Source of the DNA: Quercus robur
Taxonomy: Eukaryota > Streptophyta > Magnoliopsida > Fagales > Fagaceae
Assembly: GCF_932294415.1 (NCBI RefSeq)
Contig: NC_065545.1
Location: 42,198,327 to 42,262,326, forward strand
DNA length: 64,000 bases
Direction of reading: 5' to 3'
The notes under the pieces were generated by a model. The model saw nothing but the letters and a program-made list of their open reading frames with translations. It was not told where the DNA came from and did no database searches. Shown one piece after another: positions 32,231-62,033 of the stretch. Each line of letters opens with the position of its first letter. The stretch's first letter is position 1. Both the position numbers and the translations under genes were made by a program.

Positions 32231-33078
32231 AAATTATGAACCAAAAAAAAAAAAAATACAAACACAAATGTGATACTCTATATAAAAAGAGTAATGCTAC
32301 AAACACAAACTATTTTACAGTATTTTTACAAACTGCTGATGTGGCTTTAATAATTTCCAAATAGTTATTGTAAGTAAAATGTGATGTTAGTGATGGGCCC
32401 ATATTAGAATTAGTAAGAATTTGCCACATCAGCAGTTTGTAAAAATATTGTAAAGTAATTTGTGTCTGTAGCATTATTCATATAAAAGTAGTAAAGTACT
32501 AACAGATTTGGCATATATATGGTTATTCATTGAGAAAATAGCACAACATATAACTAACATAGAACATCACTAAAACAAATATTAGGCAAAATCACATACC
32601 GCAAAAAGAAATCAAATTCAATTACATAGAAATTCTCTGAAAGGAATAAAAATACCTTCAAATATATTATAAAGTTATATGAAAATGAAAAACCAATACT
32701 AAAAATTAAATAGACAGTTTCAAATAGAATGCATTCTTGAAATTAAAAGTTAAGTAAAAAGAAAAGCTAACCTTTAGATAACAGAATACATGAAATCTCC
32801 ACATTAACAACCTCCCAACTTAAACGAATACATAGAAAAGTGGGAGAATAGAAAATATTTTAGTTTTATCTCATAGTGTGAGGGATGGAAAAGTGGAGGG
32901 GTATAAAACTCATTTGTTTGGTTGAGAAGAAAAATAAGAAGTTAGAAAATGTAATTTGTATAAGTTTACTCCTATGCCCTTATTACATAATATAATAAAT
33001 AATTTTTTCGTAATTATTAAATAATAAAAAAATTATTTTCCATTATATATATGTATGTGTGTGTAAAAGCCACCGTTC

Positions 33079-33112
<34 letters not shown>

Positions 33113-33614
33113 AACATTGATTAAAAAAAAAAGAAGTCACATTGACAAAAACAAAAAACTGGAGGGTTTTTTTTTTTTTTTTTAGAGGGGAAAAAAAAAA
33201 ACCACTAGTTTGATTCCACAAACAAATTGAACAAATGGATGAGTAAGGAAAAGACAAAAGAAAGGTGAAAATCAGAGGCAAAAAGAAGAAAACAACAGTC
33301 ATTGAATTATGCACAGGAGGGCAATGTTCTAGTTTTCTCTTTAGTTTTCTCCCCATTTTAGGGAGAAAACATTTGGTGGATCTGGGAAGAAAACACTTAA
33401 GCCTCATCACTTTTTTTTTTCCCTTCCTCCTTTTCCAACCAAACACCCACTAAAAATACTTTTTCTCCACTTTTCTCCCCTCAATTTTTCATCATTCCTA
33501 AAATCCCTTCAAACTAACATACCCTAAGGATTTTGATCTCACTCAATTAAGGATTCTAATAGCTAGCCAATGTTAGGGATAGGTTTTAGGTTTAATGGTA
33601 AAGGAGGATTTTGC
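31912..33614. repeat. Tandem duplication, copy 1 (1703 bp)
   Basis: Begins near CCTCACCATGGAAAAAATAATT and runs to the AAGGAGGATTTTG word at 33601-33613. Without its MITE it is about 1.5 kb and matches copy 2 closely throughout, including the minus-strand low-complexity stretch at 33.08-33.45 kb. Confidence 0.8.
32289..32479. mobile_element. hAT-like MITE (191 bp)
   Basis: Long inverted ends of about 55 bp: GAGTAATGCTACAAACACAA at the left and the reverse complement of GAATAATGCTACAGACACAA at the right, both running on through ACAAACTGCTGATGTGGC. It is flanked by TATAAAAA (32281-32288) and ATATAAAA (32480-32487), a near-perfect 7-8 bp duplication that fits the hAT superfamily. The second copy of the surrounding duplication lacks it. 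Non-coding. Confidence 0.85.
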
Positions 33615-34098: not shown

Positions 34099-36085
34099 TT
34101 TTTTTTATTTTTTTGATACCAAACAAAGGAAGAGTTCATACAAAGTTACATAGAGCAGGATTATACCACCTGTAATACAAGGGTGTGTTCACAGCCTATT
34201 TAGCAAAACACCACACAGCCTTAACAACTACATGAGGGACAACCAAAATATTACAAAATAAACCATTTTGAGAGAGAAAGTTTAGATCAGCTATCCTATT
34301 ACTATCCAACCAATCTGTGCTTTTCCTTAATTTGAAAACTTGATGGAGATTGACCCTGTTAGTTAAGAACAAAACATGCTGAAATCCATAGTTTTTAGCT
34401 ATGATACCAGCTTCCACCATTGCTTCAAGTAGAGCTCCTATTGCTGTGTTGGCAAGACTGCAATTAACCCCTGAAAACACTTCCGCTCCTTGCATATTTA
34501 CAGCTACAAAAGCGTATGCTCTCCTTTGTGGCTTTGTTCTTCTTGCTTCAGCTACTTTGATGATGAGCTGATATTTCCCTGCAGCTGTGAGATGTCCTGA
34601 CTTGGCTGTTCTAAGCTCTCTAGTAGGATGGTATGGGCCTGCATAAGCCTTCCTGTACCTGCAAGATAAAGTTTTGGCTGTTAGAATAACTTCTAGGGGA
34701 TTCGGGGTCAAGCCTTGGTGAAGCACTTTGTTTCTGTGATTCCAAATTAACCACAAAACTGTAAACATTGATTGAAGGATGACCGAGCTTTGATCTTTAT
34801 TATTTAAGTAAGAGCTGATATAGTCTTTTAACCAAAACTGAACAGACACATTGGTGATGTCAGAAGTATGCAGACCAAGATCTAAACCAAACCAACAAGC
34901 TCTAGAAAAGCTACAAAGGAGAAATAGATGTGTAGGAGTCTCTTCTTCAACATTACATAAGGGACAAGTGACATCATTACTGATGCCTCTGCTATGTAGA
35001 GTGGTCAAAGTAGGTAGACTGTCATGGAGAAGTTTCCACACAAAATTAATAATTCTTAAGGGAACATGGGCTTTCCAAATTGCAGTCCATATCTTCCTTT
35101 CCTACTGGAATTGTTGTGACTCTAAAGAGTCTTCAGTTAACAACTCATAAGCTCTCTTGGTACTATAATTCCCATCCCTTGAGTATTTCCACATAAGCCT
35201 ATCCTTATAATCATTGATTTTGGAAATGGGCATTTGCAAAATGTTGTCCGCTTTAGGGTGATGGTATAAGCTCCTAATTAAATCCACTTTCCAACTTCTA
35301 GAATTATGATCAATAAGATCTCCTACTGTGCCGGTTTGCAAAAAGGGAAACGAAGAACTATCTCTTAAGTTTGGCGACCAATCAGGATGAGTAAGGTGTA
35401 TATCAAAACCATCTCCAACCAACCACCTGCCTTCTCGAAGGATAGGATCACCTTGCTGAACAATGTTTTTCCAAATCCAAGAATGGTGTGCTTTCGGTGT
35501 GTGGCCTTGCAATGATTCATTAGGATGGTACTTAGCCTTAAAAGTTCTAGCTAAGAGGGATTGGGGACAGTTAATAAGCCTCCAATATTGTTTTGCCAAC
35601 AAAGCTTGACTCATAGGGCTAAACTTCTTAATGCCAAGACCCCCCCCCCCATCTTTTAGGCTTGCAGATTTTATTCCAATTGAGCAAATGAAGTTTTTTC
35701 TCTCCAATTTCATGACCCCACCAAAAAGACCTCACAATAGAATCCATCTTGTTGCAAATAGATTCAGGAACTTTAAAACAAGAGAATGTGTATAAAGGAA
35801 GAAATTGGAGTACAGAAGAGATGAGGGTGGTTCTGCCAGCCTGTGAAAGAAGTCTAGATTTCCAGCCCTGCAGCTTAGAATGAAGCTTGTCAATCAGAAA
35901 ATGAAAATCAACAATACGATTCCCTCTCAACTTAATATTGATACTAAGGTATTTGCTGGGGTGTTGGACAAGGTTCACATTCAAACTTCTAGCTATGGAT
36001 ACTTGACATTCCTTGGCCATGTTTGGGGAGCAAAAAAGGTTAGATTTGGATAAATTTATTTTTTGGCCCGAGATAGAGCAGTGCC
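34099..36085 (-). mobile_element. 5'-truncated L1-type LINE
   Basis: Non-LTR retrotransposon on the minus strand. Its A-rich tail appears as a T-run directly after 34098, and exact 13-bp target duplications AGAAATCAAATTC flank it (34086-34098, 36086-36098). In coding order it shows the reverse-transcriptase C-terminal part (QKINLSKS, GWKSRLLSQAGRTTLI, FWWGHE), then a zf-RVT zinc-finger (CPLCNVEEETPTHLFLLC, near 34.96 kb), then an RNase H-like end. The catalytic RT core and ORF1 are missing by 5' truncation. At least two frame breaks occur, near 35.63-35.71 kb and 35.04-35.10 kb, so it is inactive. Well-preserved ends and target duplication suggest a fairly young insertion. Confidence 0.93.
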
Positions 36086-36098
36086 AGAAATCAAATTC
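36086..36098. repeat. LINE target-site duplication, right copy
   Basis: AGAAATCAAATTC, identical to 34086-34098. Confidence 0.9.
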
Positions 36099-37094
36099 AA
36101 TTGCATAGAAATTCTCTAAAAGGAATAAAAATACCTTCAAATATATTATAAAGTTATATGAAAATGAAAAACCAATACTAAAAACTAAATAGGCACTTTC
36201 AAATAGAATGCATTCTCGAAATTAAAAGTTAAAGTGAAAAAGAAAAAGAAAAAAGCTAACCTTTAGATAATAGAATACATGAAATCTCCACATTAACAAC
36301 CTCCCAACTTAAACGAATAGATAAGAAAGTGAGAGGAAAAAAAATATTTTAGTTTTCTCTCATAGTGTGAAGGATGGAAAAGTGGAGGGGTATGAAACTC
36401 ATTTGTCTGATTGAGAAGAAAAATAAGAAGTTAGAAAATGTAATTTGTATAAGTTTACTCCTATGCCCCTATTACATAATATAATAAATAATTTTTTTGT
36501 AATTATTAAATAAAAAAAATTATTTTCCATTGTATATATATGTGTGTGTGAAAGCCACTGTTCAATTAAAAAAAAAAAAAACTCCAACATTGATTATAAA
36601 AAAAGAAGTCACGTTGACAAAAACAAAAACAAACAAAAAGATAGAGTGTTTTTTTTTTCTTTTTTTTTGGAGAAAGAAAAAAAAACCACCAATTTGATTC
36701 CACAAACAAATTGAACAAATGGATGAGTAAGAAAAATACATAAGAAAGGTGAAAATCAAAGGCAAAAAGAAGAAAACGACAGTCATTGAATTATGCACAG
36801 GAGAGCGATGTTCTAGTTTTCTCTTCAATTTTCTCCCCATTTTGGGGAGAAAATATTTGGTGGGTCCGAGAAGAAAACACTTGGACCTCACCAATTTTTT
36901 TCCGTTCCTCATTTTCCAACCAAACACCCACTAAAAATACTTTCTCTCCATTTTTCTCCCCTTAATTTTTCATCGTTCCTAAAATCCCTTCAAACAAACA
37001 TACCCTAAAGATTTTGATCTCACTCAATTAAGGATTCTAATAGCTAGCCAATGTTAGGAATAGGTTTGAGGTTTAACGATAAGGGATGATTTTG

Positions 37095-37511: not shown

Positions 37512-40500
37512 ATGTCTCTTCTCTTCACCTCCGCCTCTTCACTCTTCACCAAAACCTTTAACCCCAATATTCACAGAAATAATAATAATAATAAACCATC
37601 ACCTCTTCCTCTTCTCTCTTGCACAAAACCTAAAAGTAAAACCCATTTCCTCCAAGTCACCCACTCCTCTCTCTCCGACTCCGACCCCACTCCCAAACCC
37701 CGGGTCTCCGACGACAAGGGTGAGCCATCCGACTCCGACTCCGAAACCGAACCGGAGCCCGAACCCGAGTCCCCTCCAGACCCACCTAAGAGCGAAGATG
37801 AGCGGGGCCCAGACGACGCTACTCCAAAACTAAATGCTGCTTCTTCTTCTGTTACAGAGGTAAAAGAAGAAGAGGTAGCGAAGTATGCTACCATCGATGA
37901 AGGTAACAACGCTGCCTTTACGGCCAAGCCTGACGTGTCTCCCGAGGAAGATAAGCTTGCGGAGCTGAAGCGCTGTTTAGTTGATACTTTTTACGGGACC
38001 GAATTCGGGTTCCGGGCCAGCCCGGAGGTTCGGGCCGAAGTCTCTGAGCTTGTCAATCAATTGGAGGCCGCTAACCCGACTCCGGCCCCGACCCAGTCCA
38101 CTGAACTTCTTCAAGGCAACTGGGTTTTGCTGTAAGTTCATTGCCCTTTGCATTTTTTAGCTAGATTTAAAGCTTTGCTGATTTTAGTTCTATAATCTTA
38201 ATATGCAAAATTTATTTTATTGGCAAGTTGGGTATGCATCTAGTTGATCATGTAAGAGGTTTTGAATTCATTTGGTGTTCTTTGAATTTCCAATGAGGTC
38301 TAGCTCAAATGTGATTTCTCTTTCTATAATAATGGGATGGAGGGTGAGGTCATGAGTTTAAGATCCACTAGGCTTATGTATAAGTATTTGATAATTCAAT
38401 AGCTACTGCGTCTATTTGAACCCTGAACTTTTTGCATCAATTGAGCTATAAGGCTCTTTTGTAGTCATCCACAGCATCCCCTTATATGGCTGCTTTTTTT
38501 CAAAAATAGTTAGTGTTCTTAATATAAGAGTATAAGTAAAACCAAAGTTGAATCAAATCTTGATTTTGTGAGTTTGCCAGTTCCGCTTTCAATTTCAGAT
38601 CTATTATGTATAGTTGGGTTTGGATGCTGATCCTGCTTGGTCTTCACCGACCGCCCCATTGGTGTCCCTATAGGGGAGGAGGATACTTAGTTTTTTTCAA
38701 GTCTAGAAAGACTATATTGGCAATTCAAGCAGTAAAGGACTATTAGCGCTTTGTGGATAGAAGATTTGATGATAGTTGTTAAATCCAACTTAAATTGAAA
38801 TACTTTTGGATAGCGAGTTCATTGAACTTGGTTGTCAAGCCATTTGAAATTACCATTAGTAAATGGGATAAAATATACTACTAAAAAAGAGGGATAGATT
38901 TATGAGGCTCATATGTCATGTAAGTTTGATTATACATGGTTTTACAAACTTGAAGGCAATGGTCTAGAATCTTGGTTTAGTTTTCAAATTAATTTAAATA
39001 AAGAAGATCATCTTTGATTAAATCTGTGTGCATTCATGGGGTTTCAATAAAAATTTATGGGAATTATATCATGTCTTAGTAGTGTCCACATGTAGTTGCT
39101 CTAGTACTTGGAAAAGGATCAGGAAGGAATGCCTTTCCTCTATACTTCTTTTTGCTATTGACTTGAGTTTGTCAATAATATCATTTCAACTATTTAGGTG
39201 CCTTTGCAGAAACCATCACTTAGTGTGGACTGTACTTTATAACATGAGAAATAGAAGTTTACCCAAAATAATAATAAGAACATGTGAGAGGGTGTGTTTG
39301 CCTGTTCTTGTGCCAATTATTATTTTTAACTCTAAAAGGTCAACGTCATCTGTTTTATATGGAGTAGTCTTAATAGCATTGGATTCCAACACATTGAATA
39401 TGCCAGAACAGAGGATAAGATCTTTCTGATTAAAAGAAAGATAAAAGAAGAAGAAGACTTTCAAAATATTATTTTTAATAGAAGTGCATCACTTCCAAGA
39501 AAACAAGCTCTGGAACCTAGTCCATGCAAATGGGAGATTTCTGAGCTACCATGTTTGCTTATGTTATATTGGAGAAATCACTTGTTCATATCAACCAGTC
39601 ATTGTTTTGTTAAGAGAATAGTACTACATTGTATGACTATAACATACTTTTTATGTCATTTTTGGTAAATCTAATCCTACTTTAAGCTCTCATTTTTTTA
39701 TTTGAGGATCATTTCCATTTGAGTGTTTTAATTCAATACATGTCAGCCAATAAATGGATGATTGTTATATTTCTGACTAATTTGCATTTGCCACATGAAT
39801 TTGTGTTACCCCATCTTTGTCTCAACAAAGCTTTTAGTTATTCATGGCTGCTGTTTTTGGGCTAATTTTATTGTCATTAATACTCATTAGTGTCTTTGAT
39901 ATATGCCATGTCTTGACCAAGGTCAGTGATCAGAGGAAAAATTGACTGAACTTGACTAGATCCTTGTTATAGAAGCTTGAAATTATATCACTATAAGTGG
40001 AATCAATCATATTTAGGCCTGCATTCATGTTCATTTCAGTCATTGACTCTACCGTGTGGCATGTATATAAGAATGTGAATTCAGTAGAAGCATGATGTAG
40101 ATGTCACAGACAATGCTATATGATTATATTTGTTTCTAGTGTCATCTATAATATATATAAAACTAAGCTATTTGACTTTTGGTTGACCTCATAATGTTGT
40201 GCCACATAACATTTGAGGTCTCACAATTTTACACGCCATTATTTTAATATATATTTTTAATTAAATTTAAATTCTGTTCTATATTTAAACACTCCATTAG
40301 AATCTTGGCACATACATTCTCTTTAAGTGCTAGATTATATAGTTCCCTCTACAAATACAATCAAATTATCAAATTTCATATCTAGACCAAAAAAGAAAAA
40401 GGAGGAGAAAAAATCATATAATGTTAAACCTTATTATGCATTTGCATGGGTTACCGACTACTTTGGATAAATGAAACAATGTGGAGAGCACAGCCCGGTG

Positions 40501-41416
40501 AAAGTTGATGAAACTGACTATTATTATTATTGTTTTGTTTTTACCAGTGCTTCTTACTTGGTGCACTGTTCCCTATTTGCTCACTACTTTATTTTCCAAC
40601 TAATCAGGTACACTGCATTTTCTGAGCTTTTGCCACTTCTCGCATTAGGCGCAACACCTTTGTTAAAAGTGAAGGAGATTCGCCAAGTAATTGACACTGG
40701 CAATCTTACCATTGTGAACTCTACTACGTTATCTGGCCCATTTGCTACTTTCTCTTTCAGTGCAACTGCAACTTTTGAGGTTCAAAGTCCTACAAGAATA
40801 AAGGTACTTTTATGAGCCGTAAGTATATGACTGAATATAATATTTTCCCAACGAAATGGAATGTTTTTTCTTATTTAAAAAAAAAAATAGTATAAACAAC
40901 AGTAATGATATAAAATATTAATAAAAAAAAAAAAATCATTATCTCCATTTTTATACAATAGAGCTCTACCAGATGATTGCATTGTAACAAATATGTAGTT
41001 TTTACTTGGCGTGCCCAAACAATTCTTACCAGAACCATGTCTTGTACACTTTCAATGCAATGGACAGGATTACAAAATCTTACTAGCCTACACGTCAATA
41101 TGTTCAGGTTGCATTTAAGGAAGGTACCTTTCAGCCTCCAGAGATAAAGACCAGTATTGATCTCCCAGAAAATGTGGATGTTTTTGGGCAGCAAATCAAT
41201 CTGTTGCCTGTGCAGCAAACTCTCAGTCCACTGCAGGACACAGTGGCAAGTATATCACGAGTCATTTCTGGTCAGCCACCTCTTAAGGTTCCCATTCCAG
41301 GTGACCGGACTAGTTCTTGGCTTCTTGTTACATACCTTGATGATGATCTTCGAATCTCAAGGGGAGATGGTGGTCTTTTTGTGCTCGCCAAAGAAGGGAG
41401 TCCCCTTCTTGATTAG
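37512..41416 (+). CDS. FBN2: Plastid-lipid-associated protein / fibrillin, PAP3 (FBN2) type
   Basis: Predicted structural protein of plastoglobules and thylakoid-associated lipid bodies in the chloroplast. Three exons with GT-AG borders: 37512-38131, 40608-40803 and 41108-41416. The frame is open across them and gives 374 residues, close to the 376 of Arabidopsis PAP3. Residues 1 to about 50 are Ser/Thr- and Asn-rich with basic residues, as in a transit peptide. Residues about 55-140 are an acidic Pro/Glu/Ser linker. The PAP_fibrillin domain follows, with DKLAELKRCLVDTFYGTEFG, NWVLLYTAFSELLPLL, a lipocalin-like FATFSFSATATFEV and a C-terminal SSWLLVTYLDDDLRISRGDG. The start was chosen as the first in-frame ATG after the CT-rich leader. 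Intron 1 is long (2476 bp) and its 3' part carries AT-rich repeat-like sequence. Nothing suggests damage. Confidence 0.93.
40145..40185 (+). mobile_element. Possible Helitron 5' terminus in fibrillin intron 1
   Basis: A|TCTATAATATATATAAAACTAAGC resembles plant Helitron 5' ends (TCTATATATAA...). No matching hairpin plus CTRR 3' end was found downstream inside the intron, so this is weak. Confidence 0.2.
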
Positions 41417-41999
41417 TAGCAAGATACATGTTGCGATGAGTTACTTATGAAAAGAATATACCTACCTACACCTTTTCCCCCCATTGTTCACCTTTGCTTG
41501 AATAGAAGGGGGAAAAACAGTTATATTGTTGCCCTTCTTTATATCTATGGTGGGGTCTTTTTTTTAAAAAAAAAATGGCAAAGATTGCTTTCCCCCTAGT
41601 TATTGTGTTCCTTTTCGGTTGCTAAGAGGGTGAAGCAGAAGAAATAGGAACCATTGCTATCTTACACGGCTTCTAGATCCCAACATTTGACATTTCTGTC
41701 ATCTAGGAGTGCGCTTGGTGAATACCGCTATTAACAATGTCTGTCTAATTTTGGTGTTGATCTGTCATTCTGTCAAATCTAAGTATCTAAAATTATAGGC
41801 AAAAATACTACTTCGGTCATTTCCATTTTAGAGTTATAGTTGATTTGGTTCATGCAATTTAGAAGTAGACAATTTGTTTTTTTTTTTTTTTTAAATTGCA
41901 GTCAATTTTGTCCTTATTATTAATTGGTATACTTGATGCTTATATGACTACTAAAATAACGATAGTGTAGTCAATTTGGTCCCTACTATTAATCTCACA
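41417..41999. other. Fibrillin 3' region and intergenic sequence
   Basis: The first few hundred bases should hold the 3' untranslated region. From about 41800 the sequence (GGCAAAAATACTACTTCGGTC ... TTTGGTCCCTACTATTAAT) resembles the end of a dispersed repeat into which the following Helitron inserted. Confidence 0.35.
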
Positions 42000-43516
42000 C
42001 TAGTATGTAGTCCTATGCGGTAGCACGGGAATGGATATATTATTAATCATGAGTTTATTCATGTTTAAAAGGCTCAGTTAAGTCTAAATTCATATTATTA
42101 ACCAGAAAACTTTATTAACAAAACTTAGCAGTATATATATTTTGCACAGAAAGATGAACCTTGGTGACAATGTTTATCTAAAAGATTCATTCACGCTTTT
42201 GAATCTTTAATCTCTATTGGTGATTGAAATTTTTGCAGCTTAAAAAATTTTAAATTAAAAAAAAAAAACTTTCAGAGTTGTACTCATTTTGTAGTTTTAC
42301 GATGGGTCATTTTGTAACATGATGGGCATTTATGTGAAGAAAAAACCTCTGAAATTCTATGGCTGATAAAAGAAATTCTCTCCAATCTCTTTTTATAGAG
42401 AGAGAGGTTTGTGCGTGTTTTTATACATCCTTCATAGTTGTATTATCACGAAGCAGGTCCAATGGATTTAGATTGATACTACCGATTTCCAAAGCATGAG
42501 TGTTTAATGTGTTATTAATTTCATCTCATTAGCTTCTACACATGACAGCAAAATTAAAAATAATTAGATTGTAGACGTGTATAGTAAAATTGGACTCCAA
42601 TTTCAGATTCTAATTGAACAATTGGAATGATAATATATGATAGTAACAACAATAGAAAAATTCAAATAAAATTTCGAATTAAATTGTAACAATCTGAATA
42701 AAAAATTCCAGTAGAAAGACAGGGTGGAGTGATCTACTCCAAGAAGGCGACCAAACTTGCGTAAATATAGAATAATAAATATCTCTTCGGAAAATTTACA
42801 TTGTTCATAACCTTTACCTTCACTGAACATTTTAAAAACATAGTGATTCACATCTGCCATCCAAACATCTACAGCTGGGCCCTCTCCAATTCGCGTGAGA
42901 TTCCATTGATCACTAAGTTCTAAGTTCCTTTGCAGCCTGCAAAAAGTATCATCCATCGGTCCACAGCAATGTTTTCTTCATTGTTATAGGTGCCAAACTT
43001 GAACAAAAAGCCAAATATAAGGATAGTGAATTTTAGGCATAATGTGCATCTAATCACATATTAGCAATTTATAACAAATGTAAAGATGCAAACTTTGTAA
43101 GTGAATAGTAAACAAAACTCAGTGTCAGAACCAAGAAGAAAGCACTTTAATCCGAAACTCAGTGTAAATGTAAAGATGCAAACTTTGTAAGCAATTTATA
43201 ACAAAGATGCAAACTCTGGCTTTGCTATCTTTTTGGAAATTATGCAATGTACTCAAACCAAGTTCTTATCACCAATATTAATCTCTTTGGGTTTCACGTT
43301 TGACTACAAAATCAAGAAAAAACTTAATTAGCACAATAACTCACTTGACCCGATACATAGAAGTGGTTTTAATGAGAATGAACCCACATACATTTAGCCA
43401 CATGATGCAAAATTCAACTTCAATTTCAAATTCTAGACACATGGCACAAAATTAGAGTTCTAATTTGAAATTCAATTTCACACTCTCTCTGCTTCACCTA
43501 TTATTTTATATATAGA
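42000..43516 (-). mobile_element. Non-autonomous Helitron carrying a gene fragment
   Basis: On the minus strand it starts TCTATATATAAAATAATAGG at 43516, preceded by host A, and ends CTAG at 42000, followed by host T. That is the A^T insertion pattern of Helitrons, which make no target duplication. Seven bases before CTAG is a hairpin, TCCCGTGC-TACC-GCATAGGA, with one mismatch and one wobble, at the place expected for the Helitron terminator. The interior of 1517 bp has no Rep/helicase sequence but carries an exon-like piece (42818-42936) and short internal repeats (AAATGTAAAGATGCAAAC near 43075 and 43165). The assignment rests on both ends agreeing. Confidence 0.75.
42818..42936 (-). pseudogene. 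Exon-like fragment inside the Helitron
   Basis: A 119-bp open segment on the minus strand is bounded by an acceptor (TTTTTGCAG|G) and a donor (GAAG|GTAAAG). It encodes about 39 residues including QRNLELSDQWNLTRIGEGP and VDVWMADVNHYVF. Its codon-like composition stands out from the AT-rich surroundings. The parent gene was not recognised. It is most simply read as a host exon captured by the element. Confidence 0.5.
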
Positions 43517-44627
43517 TTAGTCTAACTCAATGTGTCTTACACACCAACAAATCAACTAGATGTCTAATAATTAGACGGGTTGGGTCGTTTGGGTTTGAGT
43601 TCAACTTGGTCGGGTTTAGATCAAAACACTAAAAAATAAATGTTATATAATACATAAAATCTTAAATTCGCACAATCCAAATTAAAAATGCATAATAAAT
43701 ACTTAAGATAATACATTATAGAGTTGTACACTAATCTTATCATCGTCGTAAAAGAATTAAAAGAAATTCATATCACATTGTCAACCTCTTCAAGTGCTCA
43801 TGTTACATGTAAAATATAAATGAAGTTAGATTGTCTAAAATGACATGTAAATAAAATTCTAAGAATAAAACATAAAATGTTAGGTAAAGAAAAATAATTA
43901 AATAATTAATGTGAATTGCATCTCAATCGAATCAATGTAGATCTAGTAGTGAAGTTATTCATACTTAAGAAATTCACATCAAGTTGGCAAGTAATTTTAT
44001 TGGTATTTTTATTTACAAAACAAAATTTTAATAGAACTTTAGTATGCATTGAAAATGGGTTAAAAAAATAATTAAAATTTTATAACTATGACCTACGAAT
44101 ATGACTTTTAAGACAAATGCTTTAGTGGTGACTGAAGTTCTAGCTAATCAGCCTCACAAAGTGTCTTTGAGTGTAAGAGTGTAGATTTGCAAAATAAAAT
44201 ATATGCGTGTGAAAAATGAGATGAGAATTGAGCTCACTACACTTAAAAATTGAGAAGGAAAAAAAAATTATCAAAGGAAATAAGAGAAGAAAATTACCTA
44301 ACTACTATAAGAAAGTGAGAAGAAAAGAAAGAGAAAAACATGCAACATGAAAATTCAATGGGTTAAAAAGTGATTGGACTCGTGTGACTTGCGGGTCAAC
44401 CCAACATTACCCAAACTTTTATGAGTTTGGGTCGACCCATTTTTTCATGATCCCAAAAAATATACGCATACCCATATTTTTTTTCTTTGGGTTTGGGTAG
44501 GCTAACAAGTTTAGATCCAATTTTGCTAGGCTTAGAGATTATTAGGCATTGCAATGAGAGCTAACTTCAACTTATTAGAGTGGAACAAGTTGGTATACAT
44601 AAAACTTTGATTTCATTGATTAGTTTA
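43517..44627. other. Intergenic repeat relics
   Basis: GGGTTGGGT-type words occur at 43575-43620 and the inverted AACCCAAC/GGGTCGACCC words at 44390-44440, suggesting an old element of about 0.9 kb between them. No target duplication or coding sequence was found. Confidence 0.3.
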
Positions 44628-44636
44628 TTTAAAATA
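44628..44636. repeat. 9-bp target-site duplication, left
   Basis: TTTAAAATA, repeated exactly at 46157-46165. Confidence 0.9.
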
Positions 44637-44926
44637 GGCAAAAATGCAAAACTGACCTTCTGACTTTCACTTTTCTTCATTTCAGTCCTCTAACTTTCAA
44701 TTTTGTCAATTCATTCCTCTAACTTTTAATTTTTTTTCAATGCAGTATTCCGTTACACTCCAGTTATGGCTGCCGCTAACCTTTTTTTTTTTTGGAACTA
44801 AAAGAAAAAAAAAATCTGTAAAAAAAAAAAAAAAAACATTTAAAGAGATTGAGACCCAAATCCCAAACGTACTAAGAGCTTGGAGTTTTCGAAGGAGATC
44901 TTGAGGGTGCAGTTGGAGGAGTCGTG

Positions 44927-45043
44927 AATTTGGACGTTGGGGTTGGTGATTTTGAGCTCGTCGGCTATGGCGACTGCAGGATATATGTGGCCACCAGTGC
45001 CTCCAGCGGCAAAGACCACATGGAGAGTGTCAATGGCATCATT
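44927..45043 (-). pseudogene. MURG: Captured MurG-like glycosyltransferase fragment
   Basis: Thirty-nine codons in frame on the minus strand include HVVFAAGGTGGHIYPAVAIA followed by DELKITNPNVQI. This is the N-terminal GGTGGH nucleotide-sugar-transferase motif of MurG (UDP-GlcNAc transferase of peptidoglycan synthesis, kept in plants as a plastid protein). A stop lies immediately upstream in this frame. Upstream sequence resembles the Ser-rich transit region behind an acceptor-like TTTCAG|GTCCC near 45.13 kb. Downstream of NPNVQI the sequence no longer matches what I know of MurG. It is a fragment, not a working gene. It keeps intron-like context, so it was captured from genomic DNA. Confidence 0.8.
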
Positions 45044-45485
45044 TTACGTGGTGGGTATTTGCTCATTTGGTTGTTGGTGTTTGAGGAAGAGACAGCAGAG
45101 GAGCTTGAGGGACCTGAAATGGAAAAAAAACAGAGAGAGATCAATAAACTCTATGTGTCAAAGAGAGAAAGAGAGAGAGAGAGATGCAGAGTTTGCTTGG
45201 ATTTGGGTTTAAGTGGTAGAGTGAGAGAAAAGGAGAAGGTTAGAGAAGAGTAGAATGGTAAGTATGGGGGTTTTGGAGAAATGGTAATGGCCATTAGAGC
45301 TGGGGAAGAAGGAATTTTGATGGGTCATTAGAGCTCCCGTCTTTTTGGAGAAATGGAAATGGCCATTAGAGCTCCTGTCTTCTTGGATTTCTTGCTTTTG
45401 TTGTGACATCTTTGCTTTTGTTTTTGCTCTTAGTACGTTAGGATTTGGGTCTCAGTGTTTCTTTGTGATTTCAGGATTTGAGTAA

Positions 45486-45972
45486 GCGTACGTTTGGTAC
45501 ACTAAATGAGAATTACGATAGAAATTGTAATATTTATTACTAGGAATAAAATGTATTGTAATGTAATAACTAAACATATTCATTAGTTTGGTTGTGAGTT
45601 ATAATATTAGAATAAAACTTAACATTTATTTTAGGAAATTTCTTACTCAAACAATTATATCTCCTTAAAAATTGTTATTTTTAAATTTAAAAGAGATATG
45701 TGTTATTTTTTATGATTTTTTATTTTTATAATTGTTAGATGTATATGGAAAGTTTGTTTATTTGGAAATATATTAAATTTTGAAATAATTGCTTTTACTA
45801 AGGAATAACAAATACAACCTTTTAAAGATGAATAGTTATTCCTCATTTTGAAGAATAACTATTCATAAAGAATAATTATTCCTTGTAATAAAAATATAAC
45901 CAAACTAAAGAATAACTAAACCATAGGAATAATTATTACATTATAGCGCCTATTACAGTCTACCAAACATGC
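45486..45972. mobile_element. Nested MITE-like element inside the right Pack-MULE arm
   Basis: Left end GCGTACGTTTGGTACACTAA; the right end is the reverse complement of GCATGTTTGGTAGACTGTAA. The interior is AT-rich with repeated GGAATAA and AATAATTATTCC words. It interrupts the right inverted arm of the Pack-MULE, so it came later. No clear target duplication was seen. Confidence 0.5.
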
Positions 45973-46156
45973 TCTAAATGTTTTTTTTTTTTTTTAATTC
46001 CCAAAAAAAAAAAGTTAACGGCAGCCATAACTGGAGTGTAACGGAATACTGCATTGACAAAAATTGAAAGTTAGAGAATTTAATTGACAAAACTGAAAGT
46101 TAGAAAACTAAAATGAAAAAGAGTAAAAGTTAGAGGGTCAGTTTTGCATTTTTACC

Positions 46157-46165
46157 TTTAAAATA
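46157..46165. repeat. 9-bp target-site duplication, right
   Basis: TTTAAAATA, identical to 44628-44636. Confidence 0.9.
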
Positions 46166-48146
46166 AGTTAATTCAGCTAATAAAGTTTCTTGTTAATTCA
46201 TTATTGGTGTCTTTCGCTAATTATAAAAATCAATTATCAAGAATCAAACTTTTATATATGGAATTGCTACGCAAGCTTCATATTTATTTGTGAACATATA
46301 AAGATGAATAGGTTGAGATTAAAGTGAAAATAACAATGTTGTATATATATTTTAGTTTTGGAATAATTTTCATAATCATCATCCATGCATATATATATAT
46401 ATTTTTCCCTCTGTGCTATTATATCTTTTTAATAAATCAAATTAAGTTTTCTTTCTAATTGGTTGGTGTTCTGCAGCTTCTGCTAGTTAATGTGGAAGAT
46501 GCTCCTCACCACATTGCAGTTGAGAGAAATGGATAGTTACGGCAAATATGTCTAATACACCAAGTATGAAGTACCAACTCTTTATCTTTACCTAAAGATT
46601 GCAGCTAGTGCGATACATACTCCCAACCTATCTATGGTGGTGACAACCACTTTTTTATAAGTACAACAATACTTTAGGGCTATAAACTTGTTTTCCCATC
46701 TTATAAGCAATCCTGAATTAGTGAGCTTTTGGTGGATAATGACTCCTGAGCTTGAGTTGTCAATAATGAAAATTTTGAATTAATTCAAGAAGCAAGTTGG
46801 CTTCTTTTCTATATATATACTACAAGTTTAGAACTAATCTTAGACAAACCCTTAATAGATATTACCTTACCTCCAGTATGTGTATAGTTTATCAAGAATA
46901 ATAGGCCTAAACATTTGTCATGCTGGATTTGGATGAGTTTGTCTGAAACTTCATTTCCATACTCCCCAATCATTCCCTATAATTTAATTTTAGTCAAGCC
47001 AGATGATTCAAGACATGCAGCAACACCTGTCCTCTCTCGATCGGTGAATGTACCAACTTCTAACATTTCATTTTTCATTTTTTTTTTTATTAGTTCATTA
47101 ATTTAAATATAAAATTTTTAGTTTCAATTGATGTTTTAGTATGATGATAAAAAACTATCATAAAAAACAGACATCATAGGTTGAAACTCTTAAAAAAAAA
47201 TTATATTATCTTTTATCTCCGATCCCACCTACTTACTATTTCACCAATTATATAATTAAAGACAAATCTCAGTATTTATAAAATTATTATTTAAACAATG
47301 AGAAGTGACACAACACCCAATATATTTTCTTTTTGACTAAATGGCACAACATTATTGGCTTCACAGCCAAATGCGACATTCTCATAAATTTCACAAACTC
47401 AAGCACTTAAAAAAAAAAAAAAAACAGTTGACGAAGTCCTATTATTGCTATTCACGGAATTCCCGCCTATTTTCACGCAATTTCCTTTTTCAACTTTATC
47501 TTTTTCTTAATTAAAAAAAAGAAAAGAAAAAAAGAAACAGAGACATGGAAGAAAATGAAAAAATAAATAAATTTTTGATGAAGGTTCCAAGATAATTATC
47601 CAAAACTTTTCATCATACTCGTCCCTGTTTTTGGTGTTGACCTTTAATCAAACTGATTATTTTATTATTCAAAAAGATAATTTTTTTTTAAATATATATA
47701 AAAATAAACATAGTACCAAGTTCTTCTCTTTGGCCTTTTGTTCAAATCCTTATTCTTGATCTCTGTTCTGCCGGATCCGATAATTTGGTTGAGTTTCTGC
47801 TGGTAATTAGGAAAACCCATCAAAAGAAGAAAACGAAATCCAAGGAAATCTCTCATCTATCCAAATCTGAATTCATCAAACATTTCAGCCTCAGGTACAC
47901 AAAGTTAGAGTCGGTGTTTGTTAGGTGATTTCTATAATTCTATGCGGATAATAATAAGAAACATCAACGCAAAAGCGGTATGGTATGATCTGAATCCACA
48001 ACTTGAATTTTCATTTCTCTTCATATATTGGTTTAGAATATCGTTATTCAATTGTTCTAGGTGATGAGTTTGAATTATTAGTGGGGGGTTAAAAACCAAA
48101 AACAGAAACCTTTGGTTAGAGAAACATATTTGGATTAGTTGTTGAC
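46166..48146. other. Intergenic sequence and CML18-like gene upstream region
   Basis: No supported gene. A short open piece after an acceptor-like CTGCAG at about 46475 is too short to call. The final few hundred bases before 48147 should contain the promoter and leader of the calmodulin-like gene. A possible leader donor (CCTCAG|GTACAC) lies near 47895. Confidence 0.35.
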
Positions 48147-48638
48147 ATGAGCAACAAGCAACCAATTGAGCTTGACGATGATCAAATCGCTGAGCTGCGT
48201 GAAATATTTCGTTCATTTGATCGGAACAATGATGGGAGTTTGACACAACTTGAGCTAGGATCTCTCTTGAGATCACTTGGTCTAAAACCAAGCCCGGAAC
48301 AGCTTGAAACCTTGATTCAAAAGACTGATACGAACAGCAACGGTCTGATTGAGTTTTCGGAGTTTATAACACTTGTGGCACCTGACCTCCTTCCAGCTAA
48401 GTCTCCATATACAGAAGACCAGCTGAGGCAGTTGTTTAGGCTTTTTGATAGAGATGGAAATGGGTTTATAACCGCGGCCGAGTTGGCCCATTCTATGGCC
48501 AAGTTGGGGCATGCGCTTACTGCAGAGGAGTTGACCGGGATGATCAAGGAGGCTGATTTGGATGGAGATGGGACAATTAATTTTGAGGAGTTCTCCCTAG
48601 CAATAAATTCCGCAGCATTTGATAATTCATGGTCTTGA
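48147..48638 (+). CDS. CML18: Calmodulin-like protein, CML18 type
   Basis: Predicted calcium sensor, one exon, 163 residues. Four EF-hands each have a full 12-residue loop with Asp at position 1 and Glu at position 12: residues 25-36 (DRNNDGSLTQLE), 61-72 (DTNSNGLIEFSE), 101-112 (DRDGNGFITAAE) and 137-148 (DLDGDGTINFEE). All four loops should therefore bind Ca2+. LAHSMAKLGHALTAEELTGM and the C-terminal INSAAFDN match Arabidopsis CML18, known to bind the tail of the vacuolar Na+/H+ antiporter NHX1. Whether this protein has that partner is inference. The start is the first ATG of the frame and gives the family's usual length. The gene is intact. Confidence 0.93.
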   Translation: MSNKQPIELDDDQIAELREIFRSFDRNNDGSLTQLELGSLLRSLGLKPSPEQLETLIQKTDTNSNGLIEFSEFITLVAPDLLPAKSPYTEDQLRQLFRLFDRDGNGFITAAELAHSMAKLGHALTAEELTGMIKEADLDGDGTINFEEFSLAINSAAFDNSWS

Positions 48639-51600
48639 AACCAAACATGGGGATTTCATTTTGGTATGCTTTACTCTCTCTCTCTTTCTTTGTGCTTTTG
48701 TTTTTGTTTTCTTAATTTGCTCTGTTCTTTTTTCTTAGCATTTGATATTGTGGTTGTTGAAATTGCTTAAAATAAGAGTGGTTTCATTTCGGAGACTTGT
48801 TGCTCAAGATCTAATTTGTAGTATTAGCACTCAAGGTTTGTGATCTTCAATCTGTTGTACATGGAATTAGAAGAGAGAACAAAGGTTAACAGAATTGTTT
48901 GTATTAAGAGAGCTAATATTGAATAATGAACAACTCGTTTCCTTTTAACTCAACAGAGCTTAATGATCAGGATCTAAACAAGCATAATCTATATATATAT
49001 ATATAATATGTTCTACTAGAGGTTACATATTGAGATCTTAACATCCGTATACAATATTTGACAATCTGAATAATAAGGATGCTGATTTACATATATGATA
49101 GGTACAGTTGGCCACTATCTAGGCTGTAGAAGACTGGATTTGTTTGCATCAAATAACCTACTTAGGAGTCTTGCACATCAAAATTCTGTACAGTTCAAGG
49201 TGAATTTCTAAAGTACTTTTATAATTGCCAAGCTTCCATTGTTTTATCATGTATCCAAACACCTGAATGATTTTATTTGATCGGTTGACAATGCAATAGA
49301 CTCAGTTAGTTCTTGTTTAGTCAACAGTAACTTTGAAGCTAATTTTTATTTCTATATTATTATTGTTATTTTTGGATATGGGTACATCTCAATTGGCACA
49401 ACTACAGCGAGATTAAGAGGCTGCTTGCTTTCTGTTCATTCAAATTTTCTTTCTCCTTACTTTTGATGCTTCTGCAATCATCAAAAATTTCTTTTGACAC
49501 TAACTTTGAATCTCAGCATTAATTATATTAGTAGTGTTTCAGACTTACAGTCAACAATTCTCCAATAGGATTTTTATTAGGTCAAGAACATATGTATGAC
49601 ATGCTTATTAGGCTTAACTTAAAGCAGGCTGCAGAGGAGCTCCTGTTTCAATTCTTGTTTGTAAAACATCAGTTTGCTACATTTTAAAGTCTGTAGGTTT
49701 CAATTTTAGTCCTCTTCATAAGCTATAAAGCTTAGGTTGTTTTAAAGTTTTTCAATAATCAAAATTCTGCTTTCAAAGCACAGCTCATGGTGACACAAAT
49801 TCCAAAAATTTATTGCTGTTTTTGTTTCTTGCAGGTAAGACAAATCTCCATTCCAGCAGGTTGATCTAATCCCACATGCCCACAGCTCTATGATTATTGG
49901 ATTATGCAGGGGCTGATACGTTTCATCCATGAACGTTCGGCAAAGTGAACGTGGCACAGACATTCCCTTTTGATGTTCTAATTTAGTATGTTGGGTGAGT
50001 CAAGAAGTTTGTATTTGCTTCAATGTCCCCATTTCTTGGTAAATGACATTAAATCAGTAAGATCTGTTAGCTTTTTGTTTTGAATAATTTCATGCCCTTA
50101 GGTTTGAAATATTGTTCATGTTGCAATGTATTGATCATAAGCGTTTGCATTGACACTCAAATATTACTACTGATGAGTAACTTAAATTTCTTCCCTTTGT
50201 TGAATAGAAACGTTCTGGACACTTTGTGTAACTAGGACTAGGGTGATCAATGGCCTTATGTATGGCTTTTGTTGAGAATCATTGCAATAGTTTTCCTAAC
50301 TTAATGATCTTACCATGTATATAAAGCAAGAGTGAAAAAACGATTGGCCCGAACTGATTGACTAGAGAAAGGACAACTTGCACTACCCATAGCTTGAACA
50401 TTATAAAAAGAATGAGAAATGTTTTCTCACAATGCTTTCCACTTGATGGTGTGAGAGGCAAAGCTTGAGCTCCAGAACAAAATTAACAAACTATGTATTA
50501 ATATAATTCGACCTTATACAGTATAATTCCAACTAAACTGTTATTCAATTCTAAGGTAACAATGCGTAGCAATATTGTTGTATGCGCATGCACAGACCAA
50601 TTTGTTTATGTAATGAAAATTGTAAGCATTTCCTTCACATCACATTTCATGAGTTCAATGAATCTTTTGTTACTTCAAGACATAAATGAAGTCCTTTTAA
50701 ACTAAAATTTGATGTTTATTTTCTTGCAACATTGTTATTGATTATGTTTATGAAATAACTCATGTCAAGTAATAATGATTTTCTGATCAAATAATTCCTC
50801 TTTCCGGTCAAATTCTCTGTAATTTGTAATGAGAATGATGCCATGGATCTTATTAATCCACATGGACTGTGATTTTCTATAGAAGTGTCTATGAAGAACA
50901 ATGTTCAGAGCATATACGGAGATGTAACGGTAAACTCTAGTTAATACTTAATATATCCCTCTGATGCCATTAGCCTTTTTTAAGGGGGAAGATTTCTTTG
51001 TCTTTCCAGGGGAAAGTAAAGAAAGATTTGCATGGTGAGTTTTATCTCAACCTATAACGTTCATTTCATAATAATTGTTTTTTATTATGAGATCAAGACA
51101 TTAATTGATTTTTTATGTTAGCGGGATTCAAGCCCTTGATCTCTTATTCAATGATAAAATAAAAAATAAAAATAAAAAGTTTTATTAGTTGAGTTAATTA
51201 GAAACTACATGATTTACCAATGGCTCTCATCAAAGTTTCAAAATAATTCTACTATACTAAGGATTTTGAGTTGTTTGATTTAGAACAAAGTTTGGCTCCA
51301 AACATGTTTGGAGTCAAACTTTTTCCTTCAATTTACTGGGTATTGGTGAATTAACAAATTGTTGAGTATCTCCTTCCCTTTTCTTTTTTTTTTTTCTTTT
51401 TTTTCAACCGCAATTAAGCATCAAAGCCCAGGCCTAATAAGGAAGAGATGAGACCCACTTTTAAGCAAATGGATGAATAAATAAAGGGATAATCAATTTG
51501 ATACAACCCAAGATGACATGGGTGAACTAGTTGGATAATAAGAATCTAATACCCAATTTTTCGGTGTTACGTTAAGGAAAGATCATCTCATGAGACTTCC

Positions 51601-53002: not shown

Positions 53003-53408
53003 GATGCCATTTAAGCTATAACTCATAAGAAAACATGGATGCTACATCTACAAAAACAACTTTTTACAAACTAAAGTGGCTTGAAGTTAAGACACTGATG
53101 CAACAGTGGTACCAAAAACACTGAGCGCAGTGTGCCCAGCAAAGGAATGCAGTACGTAGAGAGATAACAACCATACCAAAATGCAGTAAATGCGGTAGTC
53201 ATTTTAGCCCTAAGATAATAGACTGAAATGTGAGCTTCCAATAGTATTAGAAATGATACCGATATACAAAATCTGCAAGCTGCAGCAAATTCAAAACTAA
53301 ACAATCATCCAGACTAGAAAATGTGTTGGGGGAGGAAAAACAAACAAGGAAAATAAGTAAATTTCTAAGTTACCCTCCGAACAAGTGAAAAATGGAAGAA
53401 ATTTTGCA

Positions 53409-53682
53409 TCAAGCCTTCTTCTTTTTGGATCTGAGCATCACTAATCCAATAAACACACATAAGAAACAGAGACTCACCGCACTGGTAAAAACAGGTACTA
53501 GTATAGCATATTCTTGTGGTATAAAATCCTTGTGGATGAAGTGATCGCTATCTACAAATGGCTGAAAAATCACAAGATAGGAATCAAACGTCAATAGGTA
53601 GCTTATACAGCATTTTTTCCCCTTTTATCTTTTTGGTTGGGGGTTAAAGTAAACTGACCAAGAATGATGATCCAGAAAGTAC
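53409..53682 (-). pseudogene. DPM2: DPM2 truncated copy
   Basis: Exon 2 is intact (53561-53409, 50 residues plus stop; PFVDSDHFIH ... SKKKKA). Of exon 1 only the last few codons remain (TFWIIIL, about 53660-53681), with one extra base before the donor compared with the intact copy at 61.6 kb. The ATG and the first transmembrane helix are missing, and the sequence upstream joins directly to what is intergenic sequence in the other copy. It is a pseudogene by deletion, although exon 2 carries no stop. Confidence 0.85.
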
Positions 53683-53761
53683 ACATGTAGTAGCAGACAC
53701 TTTGATCAAACATTAATAAATATCATAATATCAAAGAAAAATGGGCAAATGTAAACAATCT

Positions 53762-53781
53762 CCCCCCCCCCCCCCCCCCCC
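53762..53781. repeat. Poly(C) run
   Basis: Twenty consecutive C followed by a TTC-rich tract. The homologous place in copy B (about 62177-62200) is only a broken C-rich stretch. Confidence 0.85.
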
Positions 53782-53960
53782 ACCCCTCTCTTCTTCTTCT
53801 TCTTCTTCACCCACAAAATTTTAAAACAACAAGAGAACCCTCAAGGTTGCATGGAATCAAAGCCTTGAAATTGGATATCTAGTCCCTTTGTACATAAACG
53901 AGCTTCAAACTGAATCAAAATTGTACGTGGTACAAAAACATTTCATTGCTAAAGTAAACT

Positions 53961-55120: not shown

Positions 55121-57118
55121 TCAAAATGGAACTCGACGTTCTTTGAAATCTTGAAAATCATCGATGATTGATTCTAAACTAAATTTTGCAGCAGTCTCCC
55201 TCTCCATATACAAAATCAAAGAGTCCGCCAGAAAATCATCTTGCACTTTGTCTACAAGCCAAGTTTTGACAATATTCATGGCTGAAAATGCTCGCTCCGT
55301 AGTTGCAATAGAAATTGGAAGAGTAAGCACAAGTATAACCACTCTATAAACAAGATGGTAGTCTATTGATTTTCTAGTTTTTACCAACCATTGGCACAAT
55401 TCAGAAATAGTTGACAGCTTTTTGAAGTCCGGATGCCGAACTACATCATGCTCATAATGATCAAGTTCCACTTTCAGTTGTTGCTTTTCATGGTCTGTGA
55501 AGTCTTGTGGATAAAACTTGTTTACCAACAATAAAATATCTTCGATTCTAAAAGATTCACATGCTTCTCTAGGATCAAGAGCTGAGCTAAGACGAAGTAG
55601 TTCCACTACATGCTCACTAAACCGACGATTTAATTCTTGAACTATAGAATCTATTGTAGCATTAAAAATATTTACTCGGTAATGATGCTCAATTGTAAAG
55701 TAATCTTTTTGATGACGAGCTACACCTCGAAACCGAACATAACGAGCATTCATATCTGGGACATCTATGTTGCATGCCTTACAAAATGATTTCACAGTGG
55801 TAAGTAAGCCATCCCATCCATCATCTCTGAATTTTTGGATAAGTACTTTAGTGAATGAAACAAAATGCAAGACATTTAAAATGTTTGGAGACTGGCATTG
55901 CAAAGCTTGACAAAACGAATTAGTGATCTCCATAACTTCTTTCATTAGATGCAAAATGAACACAAATTCAAATGATGTCAATTCCTCATAAGCTAAGTCT
56001 GCCTCTCCTCGTTGGGAACTAGTTCCGTCATCAATGACCTCAAGTAAAATTTCACAGATTGGATTGAATATTTTTATCAAGCTAGAAAACGATTTCAAGT
56101 GAGAACTCCGACGAGTATCTCCAGCCCATTGCAAAGTGCTAATCTCATCAAATCCCCTTCCAGATTCAAGCTCAACCATGTCAATCATATGTGCAATTTC
56201 AGCAGCATAAGAACTTTTTAGTTTCTCATTACACTCACCAACAACATTGACAACAGAAGTTAATTTCATGAAAAAACTTTGAACAGGGATAACGTTCTTT
56301 GATGCTGCCGCTATCGCTAATTGCATGCAATGTACAAAACAATGGACATGGTAAGCATATGGACAATCATTTGAAACTAAAGCTTGTAATCCACTCCACT
56401 CCCCTCTCATATTACTTGCCCTATTATACCCCTGTCCTCGAATATTTTGGATATTTAGACAATGATGAGACAAAACAGAATATATCCCATCTTTTAGGGT
56501 TAATGCCGAAAAGTTAGAGACACGAACTAACCCAAAAAAACGTTCCTGCACAAAGCCGTCTTTGTCTACAAACCTTAAAACAATAGCAATTATATCATTC
56601 CATGACACATCATAAAATTTATCAACAATTATGCAAAACTTTGCATCACCAATTTCTTCACGAATTGCCTTTCTCACCTTGTTTGAAAAAACATGTAAAA
56701 TTTCTTTTTGGATATCAGGTGATTTGTAACACGCATTCTCAGGAGCTCTATTCATCACTTCAGTAACCTTTTCATTAAATGATGCCACCATATCCAAAAG
56801 TGAACGGAATTTTTCGTGACTGATTAAACCAGTGAAATCATCAAACAGAAGACCTTGGAATGCAAGCAATTTGACAACATCAATGGTGACCTTTAATAGC
56901 AGCCGGTCATTTGCAATTTGTTCAGAAGTGAAATTGTCAAGCACTTGATCATCCTCACATGAGCTCTCCAAAACTCTATGAAATGAGTTGGGATTTTCAG
57001 AAATTGGGACATCATCAACACTGGCACTCGGCAACGTGGGATCATCAGTTTTGGCTTCTAAATTATCTGTTTTTTGTCTTTTGAAATAATCAAACATTGT
57101 AGTTGACTTTCCCATGAT
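55121..57118 (-). CDS. hAT-transposase-derived protein (DUF4371/TTF-type, C-terminal dimerisation domain)
   Basis: Single coding exon of 664 codons, ATG at 57115-57113. After an N-terminal TTMFDYFKRQ come the RNase H-like core (CIIVDKFYDV near residue 161; GQGYNRASNMRGE near 228; YHVHCFVHCMQLA near 255) and the hAT C-terminal dimerisation segment (LPISIATTERAFSAMN near 610). Compared with relatives as I know them, the TTF zinc-finger block is absent, the usual GQGYDGASNM has Asn-Arg in place of Asp-Gly, and the usual GDTRW has Arg for Trp. An upstream splice pair (donor GAG|GTATGC at 57407/57406, acceptor TTGTAG|ATCATGG ending at 57119) suggests a 5' untranslated exon. A donor GTGAGT lies 7 bases after the stop. 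No terminal inverted repeats were found. It is either a domesticated transposase gene or a recently immobilised copy. Confidence 0.8.
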   Translation of the reverse strand: MMGKSTTMFDYFKRQKTDNLEAKTDDPTLPSASVDDVPISENPNSFHRVLESSCEDDQVLDNFTSEQIANDRLLLKVTIDVVKLLAFQGLLFDDFTGLISHEKFRSLLDMVASFNEKVTEVMNRAPENACYKSPDIQKEILHVFSNKVRKAIREEIGDAKFCIIVDKFYDVSWNDIIAIVLRFVDKDGFVQERFFGLVRVSNFSALTLKDGIYSVLSHHCLNIQNIRGQGYNRASNMRGEWSGLQALVSNDCPYAYHVHCFVHCMQLAIAAASKNVIPVQSFFMKLTSVVNVVGECNEKLKSSYAAEIAHMIDMVELESGRGFDEISTLQWAGDTRRSSHLKSFSSLIKIFNPICEILLEVIDDGTSSQRGEADLAYEELTSFEFVFILHLMKEVMEITNSFCQALQCQSPNILNVLHFVSFTKVLIQKFRDDGWDGLLTTVKSFCKACNIDVPDMNARYVRFRGVARHQKDYFTIEHHYRVNIFNATIDSIVQELNRRFSEHVVELLRLSSALDPREACESFRIEDILLLVNKFYPQDFTDHEKQQLKVELDHYEHDVVRHPDFKKLSTISELCQWLVKTRKSIDYHLVYRVVILVLTLPISIATTERAFSAMNIVKTWLVDKVQDDFLADSLILYMERETAAKFSLESIIDDFQDFKERRVPF

Positions 57119-61064: not shown

Positions 61065-61644
61065 TGAATTTTTAATTCAACAGTTACAACATTGGGGAGG
61101 GGAAGTTGAACCCGTAAATGTTCCTGTTGAAAACATCATGAGGAGCAAGTTGAGTTACAAAACTTATCAACAAATGCATACTTTCAGCACTCTATCCTAG
61201 GCAAGTAGGATGTCATTAACTAACAACGGGAGTCCATACCATAAAAAGGAGGGGGGAAATAAATTAAACTAAAGTGGTCTGTAGTGGTGTTATGTTAAGT
61301 CACTTGCATAACATGTGGTAGCAGTACCAAACAATGAGCAAAGTATGCCAAGGAATGCAGTAGTGCCATAACAACCACGGACAAATTATAGGCAACATGC
61401 AGTAAATTTGGTAATAGACTCAATTTTCCAAAATAAGTTTAGGCCCTAAGGTAATAGACTAATATATGAGCTTCTAATAGTATTAGAAATGATACAGATA
61501 TACAAAACCTGCAAGTTTCAACAAATCCAAAATTAAAACACTCCTTCAGATCAGAAAATGTGTAGAGAGGTAAAAAAACAAACAAGAAAATAAGAACTCT
61601 AAGTTACTCTCAAAGATTTTTTTTTAAAGGCAGAACTAATTGTA

Positions 61645-62033
61645 TCAAGCCTTCTTCTTTTTGGATTTGAGCATCACAAATCCAATAAATACACACAAGA
61701 AACAGATAAGCACCACACCGGCAAATAGAGGTACTAGTATGGCGTATTCTTGTGGTAGGAAATACTCGTGGATGAAGTGATCACTGTCTACAAATGGCTG
61801 AAAGATCACAAGATATGAATAAAACATCAATAGGTTACGCATACAGTATTCATTTCCTTTTTTTTTTTTTTTTTTTGGGAATTTGAAGAGGGGGCTAGGG
61901 GTTGTAAAAGGAAGAGATTAAATTAAATTGGAAGTAAACTGACCAGAATGATGACCCAGAAGGTATAATACGTGAATATGGATAAGCTGATAAAAGATAA
62001 CAGAAACCCAACTGCTCTGTCTGCTAATTCCAT
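61645..62033 (-). CDS. DPM2: Dolichol-phosphate mannosyltransferase subunit 2
   Basis: Small membrane subunit that anchors and stabilises the DPM1 catalytic subunit of dolichol-phosphate-mannose synthase in the ER. That enzyme supplies mannose for N-glycan, GPI and O-mannose synthesis. Two coding exons: 62033-61944 (30 codons, MELADRAVGF ... FWVIIL) and 61797-61645 (PFVDSDHFIHEYFLPQEYAI ... KSKKKKA, stop). They join in phase to give exactly 80 residues, the length of Arabidopsis DPM2. Two hydrophobic helices (about 10-30 and 50-70) flank the PFVDSDHF loop, and the tail is lysine-rich. An acceptor TTACAG|GTAGTG about 20 bases before the ATG suggests an untranslated first exon further upstream. 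A truncated sister copy lies at 53.4 kb. Confidence 0.93.

Follow-up and report, generated by a model that had tools for sequence, protein, structure and literature searches.

How a piece of MurG came to lie between long inverted repeats in the genome of Quercus robur, and whether it acts on anything there, is the question raised by positions 44637-46156 of the 64,000-nucleotide stretch of DNA analysed here (hereafter the window). The sequence-only reading had placed a Mutator-like element at these coordinates, bounded by exact 9-bp target duplications, and both the coordinates and the duplications proved right to the base. The ends of the element and its arms comprise the following features:

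44628-44636, no strand: left target site duplication TTTAAAATA, 9 bp identical to 46157-46165
44637-44814, plus strand: uninterrupted outer stretch of the left terminal inverted repeat, sharing 157/178 columns with 45981-46156 in inverted orientation
44850-44879, plus strand: inner end of the left arm, matching 45426-45454 in inverted orientation at 93% across 30 columns
45426-45454, minus strand: inner end of the right arm, 93% over 30 columns to 44850-44879
45981-46156, minus strand: uninterrupted outer stretch of the right terminal inverted repeat, sharing 157/178 columns with the left arm
46157-46165, no strand: right target site duplication TTTAAAATA, 9 bp identical to 44628-44636

The two copies of the target duplication agree in 9/9 bases and sit exactly at the ends set by the inverted repeats, while extension of the match to 10-13 bases fails. 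As a chance control, 9-bp matches were counted at the same spacing across the window, where they occurred at 12 of 62,462 positions, namely the duplication itself and two overlapping runs of 6 and 5 positions; at random spacings they occurred 235 times in 3,501,000. A 9-bp match of this kind is rare by chance even in an AT-rich window; the duplication is AT-rich itself and so less informative than a random 9-mer.

The terminal inverted repeats pair 44637-44814 with 46156-45981 at 88% identity, with 2 gap columns. With its inner piece the left arm spans 44637-44879, or 243 bp, so the arms of about 245 bp given in the sequence-only reading stand on the left; on the right that length is reached only by allowing for a nested insertion at 45486-45974, which was absent from that reading. 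Toward the interior the arms match irregularly: 31 bp of the right one, lying between this insertion and the inner repeat, have no clear counterpart on the left. No second copy of the arms lies within the 64-kb window, and patterns made from them gave 0 matches each in viral contigs and in prokaryote genomes, as expected for plant DNA. Between the arms, 15 transitions and 4 transversions were counted in 176 compared sites (K2P 0.119). Substitution rates of 1.3e-8 to 2e-9 would place the insertion some 5-30 million years ago, provided that the arms were identical at insertion; on the same proviso, the element is an old, decaying copy.

The interruption of the right arm has a character of its own:

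45486-45974, no strand: nested candidate for a Tourist-like MITE, flanked by TAA left and right, with GCGTACGTTTGGTA / GAGCATGTTTGGTA at its ends

This insertion measures 489 bp and is AT-rich (GC 0.215). Tourist-like MITEs typically show a TAA or TTA target duplication, short terminal inverted repeats, a length of a few hundred base pairs and no coding capacity. The insertion shares with them its TAA flanks, its AT-rich composition and short, imperfect terminal repeats with GTTTGGTA, whereas its ends agree in only 11/14 bases. It looks like a Tourist-type MITE and as such may belong with the PIF/Harbinger group. Without this candidate MITE and one TAA, the element is 1,028 bp long, which falls within the size class of 1000-1200 bp described as the commonest among tomato Pack-MULEs (PMC3310237).

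Between the arms, on the minus strand, lies the captured gene fragment:

44927-45043, minus strand: captured MurG fragment of 39 codons, NDAIDTLHVVFAAGGTGGHIYPAVAIADELKITNPNVQI, recognised by PF03033, TIGR01133 and our own profile, with residues 5-39 homologous
45044-45046, minus strand: in-frame stop TAA directly upstream of the fragment in the translation, the stop-to-stop frame starting at 45043

A MurG fragment with GGTGGHIYPA had been proposed here from the letters, and the protein search of the 44927-45043 translation that was to decide the matter returned MurG by every route taken. Pfam matched the frame to PF03033 above its cut-off (E=4e-9; profile positions 1-30 of 139), and the fragment thus holds the beginning of the N-terminal glycosyltransferase family 28 domain with its GGTGGHxxPA motif. 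NCBIfam returned TIGR01133 (murG) at E=2e-6 over positions 7-31 of 353, with 27.1 bits, which lies below the whole-protein cut-off of 250.25, as the score of any fragment must. In a phmmer search of PDB, the top three matches were MurG sequences (E 3.4e-4, 0.0029 and 0.011). Sirtuins gave weaker matches in NCBIfam and PDB, the best at E 0.043 and 0.096, far below MurG. Of 521 relatives, the best 80, all of them bacterial MurG loci, went into our own profile, which matched over positions 4-38 of 369 at E=1.9e-15. The comparison with individual MurG loci was thus one with bacterial sequences. MGDG synthase, a relative of MurG (PMC12681378), was considered as the source of the fragment and rejected, the Pfam family being PF03033 and the NCBIfam family murG.

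The recognisable MurG sequence amounts to about 35 codons. In 67 of the 80 listed loci, the 64-aa query shows similarity up to its residue 38 or 39, near position 44927; the similarity stops earlier (31-37) in 8/80 and later (44-62) in 5/80, these end points having been counted by eye. The five later-ending matches reach their residues 44-62 at 40-61% identity. Pfam stretched PF03033 to residue 49 on the 64-aa frame, with two further chance matches below cut-off, and extended its match to 68 profile positions on the read-through frame. We read these longer Pfam and bacterial matches as alignments that probably run into unrelated sequence; they nevertheless make the position of the breakpoint uncertain by some residues. 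A hydrophobic-hydrophobic-G-[TSG] motif found 19-21 residues past the loop in 64/80 bacterial MurGs (a looser version used in place of a stricter one, which fitted 25/80) does not occur in the fragment or in any of the three minus-strand frames there. When the window was searched as 3,556 six-frame fragments of at least 12 residues, no further significant MurG match appeared, the remaining matches having E 1.3 and 2.6; neither the rest of the N-terminal domain nor the C-terminal UDP-GlcNAc domain gave a significant match on either strand of the 64 kb. The piece is a scrap of one gene and not a gene, and it could not give rise to an enzyme.

Plant MurG is probably the donor family. The fragment shares with it, as judged on bacterial MurGs, the GGTGGHIYPA loop and the next helix, and differs from it in having about 35/369 profile positions and an in-frame stop upstream; the Arabidopsis representative is At1g73740 (PMC9954125). 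GC content is 0.521 in the MurG piece and 0.445 in the interior, against 0.336 in the window, in line with the preference of Pack-MULEs for GC-rich sequence described in rice and maize, GC content varying less in dicots (PMC3310237).

The remainder of the interior is less easily assigned:

44880-44926, minus strand: 47 bp separating the inner arm end from the MurG fragment, whose reading frame stays open across them, our own profile ending at residue 39
45047-45425, minus strand: remaining interior, with a T-rich 3'-splice-site-like stretch and a 47-codon ATG frame in its sequence
45271-45373, no strand: internal direct duplication of 31 nt at 97%, with copies at 45271-45301 and 45343-45373

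The 47 bp next to the arm are possibly a second captured piece or filler. The in-frame peptide of 44852-44926 gave 0 PDB matches up to E 10, and a peptide in another frame (44850-44933) gave none below E 1.2. On the other side of the fragment, the minus-strand interior carries the T-rich stretch with TTTCAG at 45114-45130, and the 47-codon frame starts from an ATG at 45294 and is rich in S, L, P and K, a composition that might be expected of a plastid protein's leader. Pfam gave no match up to E 1 on 45154-45294 and 45046-45150, and PDB searches of the two open interior frames returned nothing significant (best E 0.51 and 0.5). The stretch 45047-45425 may be the transit-peptide or leader part of the same parent MurG gene. 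Across the window, an Rfam scan at gathering thresholds returned 0 families and ARAGORN 0 tRNAs.

Taken as a whole, 44637-46156 has all the defining features of MULEs and Pack-MULEs that were assessed. MULEs are described as having inverted repeats of at least 100 bp with at least 80% similarity, intact ends and a target duplication of 9-11 bp (PMC3310237), or of 8-11 bp in another account (PMC6446971). Here the duplication is 9 bp long and exact at both ends, the inverted repeats extend over 178 columns at 88% from the first base of the element, and the gene fragment that distinguishes a Pack-MULE lies between them, the MurG donor being presumably the host's own gene. Both structure and sequence thus bear out the view that the locus is a Pack-MULE with a MurG fragment. 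No transposase domain came up in Pfam scans in three frames per strand (plus strand 38100-47101, minus strand 40100-49101, E up to 1), which recovered the upstream fibrillin gene and the MurG piece, plus a single match at chance level (E=0.1).

Like other Pack-MULEs, the element combines long terminal inverted repeats, a 9-bp target duplication, a non-autonomous constitution, a host gene fragment and a length of about 1 kb without the MITE; it differs from them only in having MurG as its donor, and it also holds a nested MITE candidate in one arm. A close comparison is with PM-ZIBP of tomato (PMC3310237), likewise a Pack-MULE of a dicot with a fragment of one gene, whose single-TIR copy measures 944 bp. 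PM-ZIBP differs in its donor gene and in having tandem-TIR derivatives as well (PMC3310237), whereas the inner arm repeat described here is a short inward extension and not a second TIR.

Pack-MULEs of rice were reportedly described by Jiang et al. in 2004. MULEs are described as picking up pieces of host genes routinely, rice alone having more than 3,000 Pack-MULEs with fragments of over 1,000 genes (PMC13317346). MurG, for its part, is counted as one of four homologues of its pathway that every sequenced plant genome contains (PMC9954125), and in the gymnosperm Gnetum only part of MurG is reported as found (PMC12681378). Because MurG is present across sequenced plant genomes, it is unremarkable as a Pack-MULE donor, one among those available, and the suggestion that its capture is unusual does not hold. 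Pack-MULEs and MurG were not found together in open-licence main texts, donor lists being usually placed in supplements; a Cyanophora genome paper has MurG alongside transposable element, chloroplast and peptidoglycan.

These features are best explained, with a probability of roughly 0.92, by a non-autonomous Pack-MULE that captured a piece of host MurG, transposed to this site, later took up a Tourist-like MITE and has since been decaying. In such a course, a Mutator-like element would have taken up part of the host's own nuclear MurG gene between its arms. Since the Pfam scans show no transposase, one encoded elsewhere would presumably have mobilised the element, acting in trans on the terminal inverted repeats and leaving the 9-bp duplication. 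The Tourist-like MITE would have entered the right arm afterwards, and the element, decaying since insertion, would be functionless today. As for the capture itself, gap filling and template switching are put forward for MULEs (PMC8277862), and fusion of neighbouring insertions is proposed for other Pack-TYPE elements (PMC8903248); the present sequence evidence does not choose among these mechanisms.

On another view there was no capture: a MurG gene or pseudogene would have decayed where it stood, and the inverted repeats or MITEs around it would be a coincidence. The fragment and the possible leader do stand in natural order on the minus strand, as such an origin would have it, yet of the 369 profile positions just 4-38 are represented, neither strand of the 64 kb shows a further MurG exon, and the resemblance to MurG coding sequence ceases near 44927, still 47 bp short of the inner arm end. 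The whole unit is moreover enclosed by terminal inverted repeats with an exact 9-bp duplication, which makes a gene in place very improbable. Exceedingly unlikely is a role for the fragment in a new chimeric peptide or a transcript of its own. A 67-codon stop-to-stop frame does cover the MurG piece and the DNA that follows it; this frame, however, begins right after a stop, the 64-codon part tested has no ATG, and past its MurG part it draws only matches below the family cut-offs.

A further proposal is that the element acts as a functional silencer, its antisense transcript or the siRNA made from it lowering expression of the parental MurG gene. The claim that MurG lies antisense to plus-strand read-through is in keeping with the neighbouring genes, which are both on the plus strand:

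37494 (approximately) to the stop codon at 41414-41416, plus strand: PAP/fibrillin gene (Pfam PAP_fibrillin), which speaks for a plant host
48147-48638, plus strand: EF-hand protein (Pfam)

These are the nearest recognised genes on either side, the plus strand between them having been scanned with Pfam as far as 47101, and read-through on that strand would be antisense to MurG. Elsewhere, transcription is claimed for 40% of Pack-MULEs, which may also encode small RNAs (PMC8277862), and gene copies captured by transposable elements in maize are described as siRNA reservoirs (PMC13317346). The ratio of 15 transitions to 4 transversions between the arms is what methylated DNA would lead one to expect, as would ordinary drift. 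In a predicted fold of the plus strand, 86/117 MurG positions find partners nearby, in 64 cases inside the MurG piece, so that some structure is conceivable there; on the minus strand, 54/117 are paired, mostly locally. The same folds, which are single minimum-energy predicted structures computed without a shuffled control, nevertheless pair 163/176 (plus) and 155/176 (minus) of the right-arm positions with the left arm, and 0/117 MurG positions with an arm on either strand. Since the arms pair together and MurG pairs with neither, siRNA from such a long hairpin should come mainly from the arms. Against silencing also speak the roughly 3.2 kb that separate the fibrillin stop codon from the start of the element, the shortness of the MurG-similar stretch, and the view that purifying selection may eliminate cases in which an essential donor is silenced (PMC13317346). 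A functional silencer is accordingly very improbable, and there is as slim a chance that a plus-strand transcript, arising by fibrillin read-through or from the element's own TIR, gives rise to MurG siRNA or RNA-directed methylation and so tunes a relic step of plastid peptidoglycan synthesis. Silencing of the parental MurG by the element is possible and not supported, and the decaying Pack-MULE described above is retained as the reading of this locus.

The surroundings contain further repeats and frames that resemble parts of mobile elements. Just downstream of the element, 46471-46536 (plus strand) looks exon-like by eye, with CTGCAG followed by a short open frame to TAG; the Pfam scan recognised no gene there. 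At 55121-57115 (minus strand), a 664-codon frame without internal stops carries DUF4371 and hAT dimerisation domains and resembles a hAT-type transposase. It is flanked by direct repeats at 53203-53953 and 61438-62367, which match at 80-81% in two pieces and may go back to an old duplication in this region or simply be related repeats. A direct repeat of about 1 kb at 89% (32607-33613 and 36086-37094) flanks a zf-RVT frame at 34196-35041, and an inverted pair (4918-5711 and 6885-7679; 93% over 795 bp) flanks a gag-like frame at 5968-6852 (plus strand). A perfect palindrome of 62 nt lies at 11456-11517.

The element seems to be an unexceptional product of a widespread process and, as it stands, is of little importance beyond adding one more donor gene to the list of those sampled by Pack-MULEs. 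The role of MurG in angiosperm plastids is treated as open in the literature (PMC9954125, PMC12681378), and if the silencing of its parental gene were true, the locus would provide natural variation with which to study the function of MurG there.
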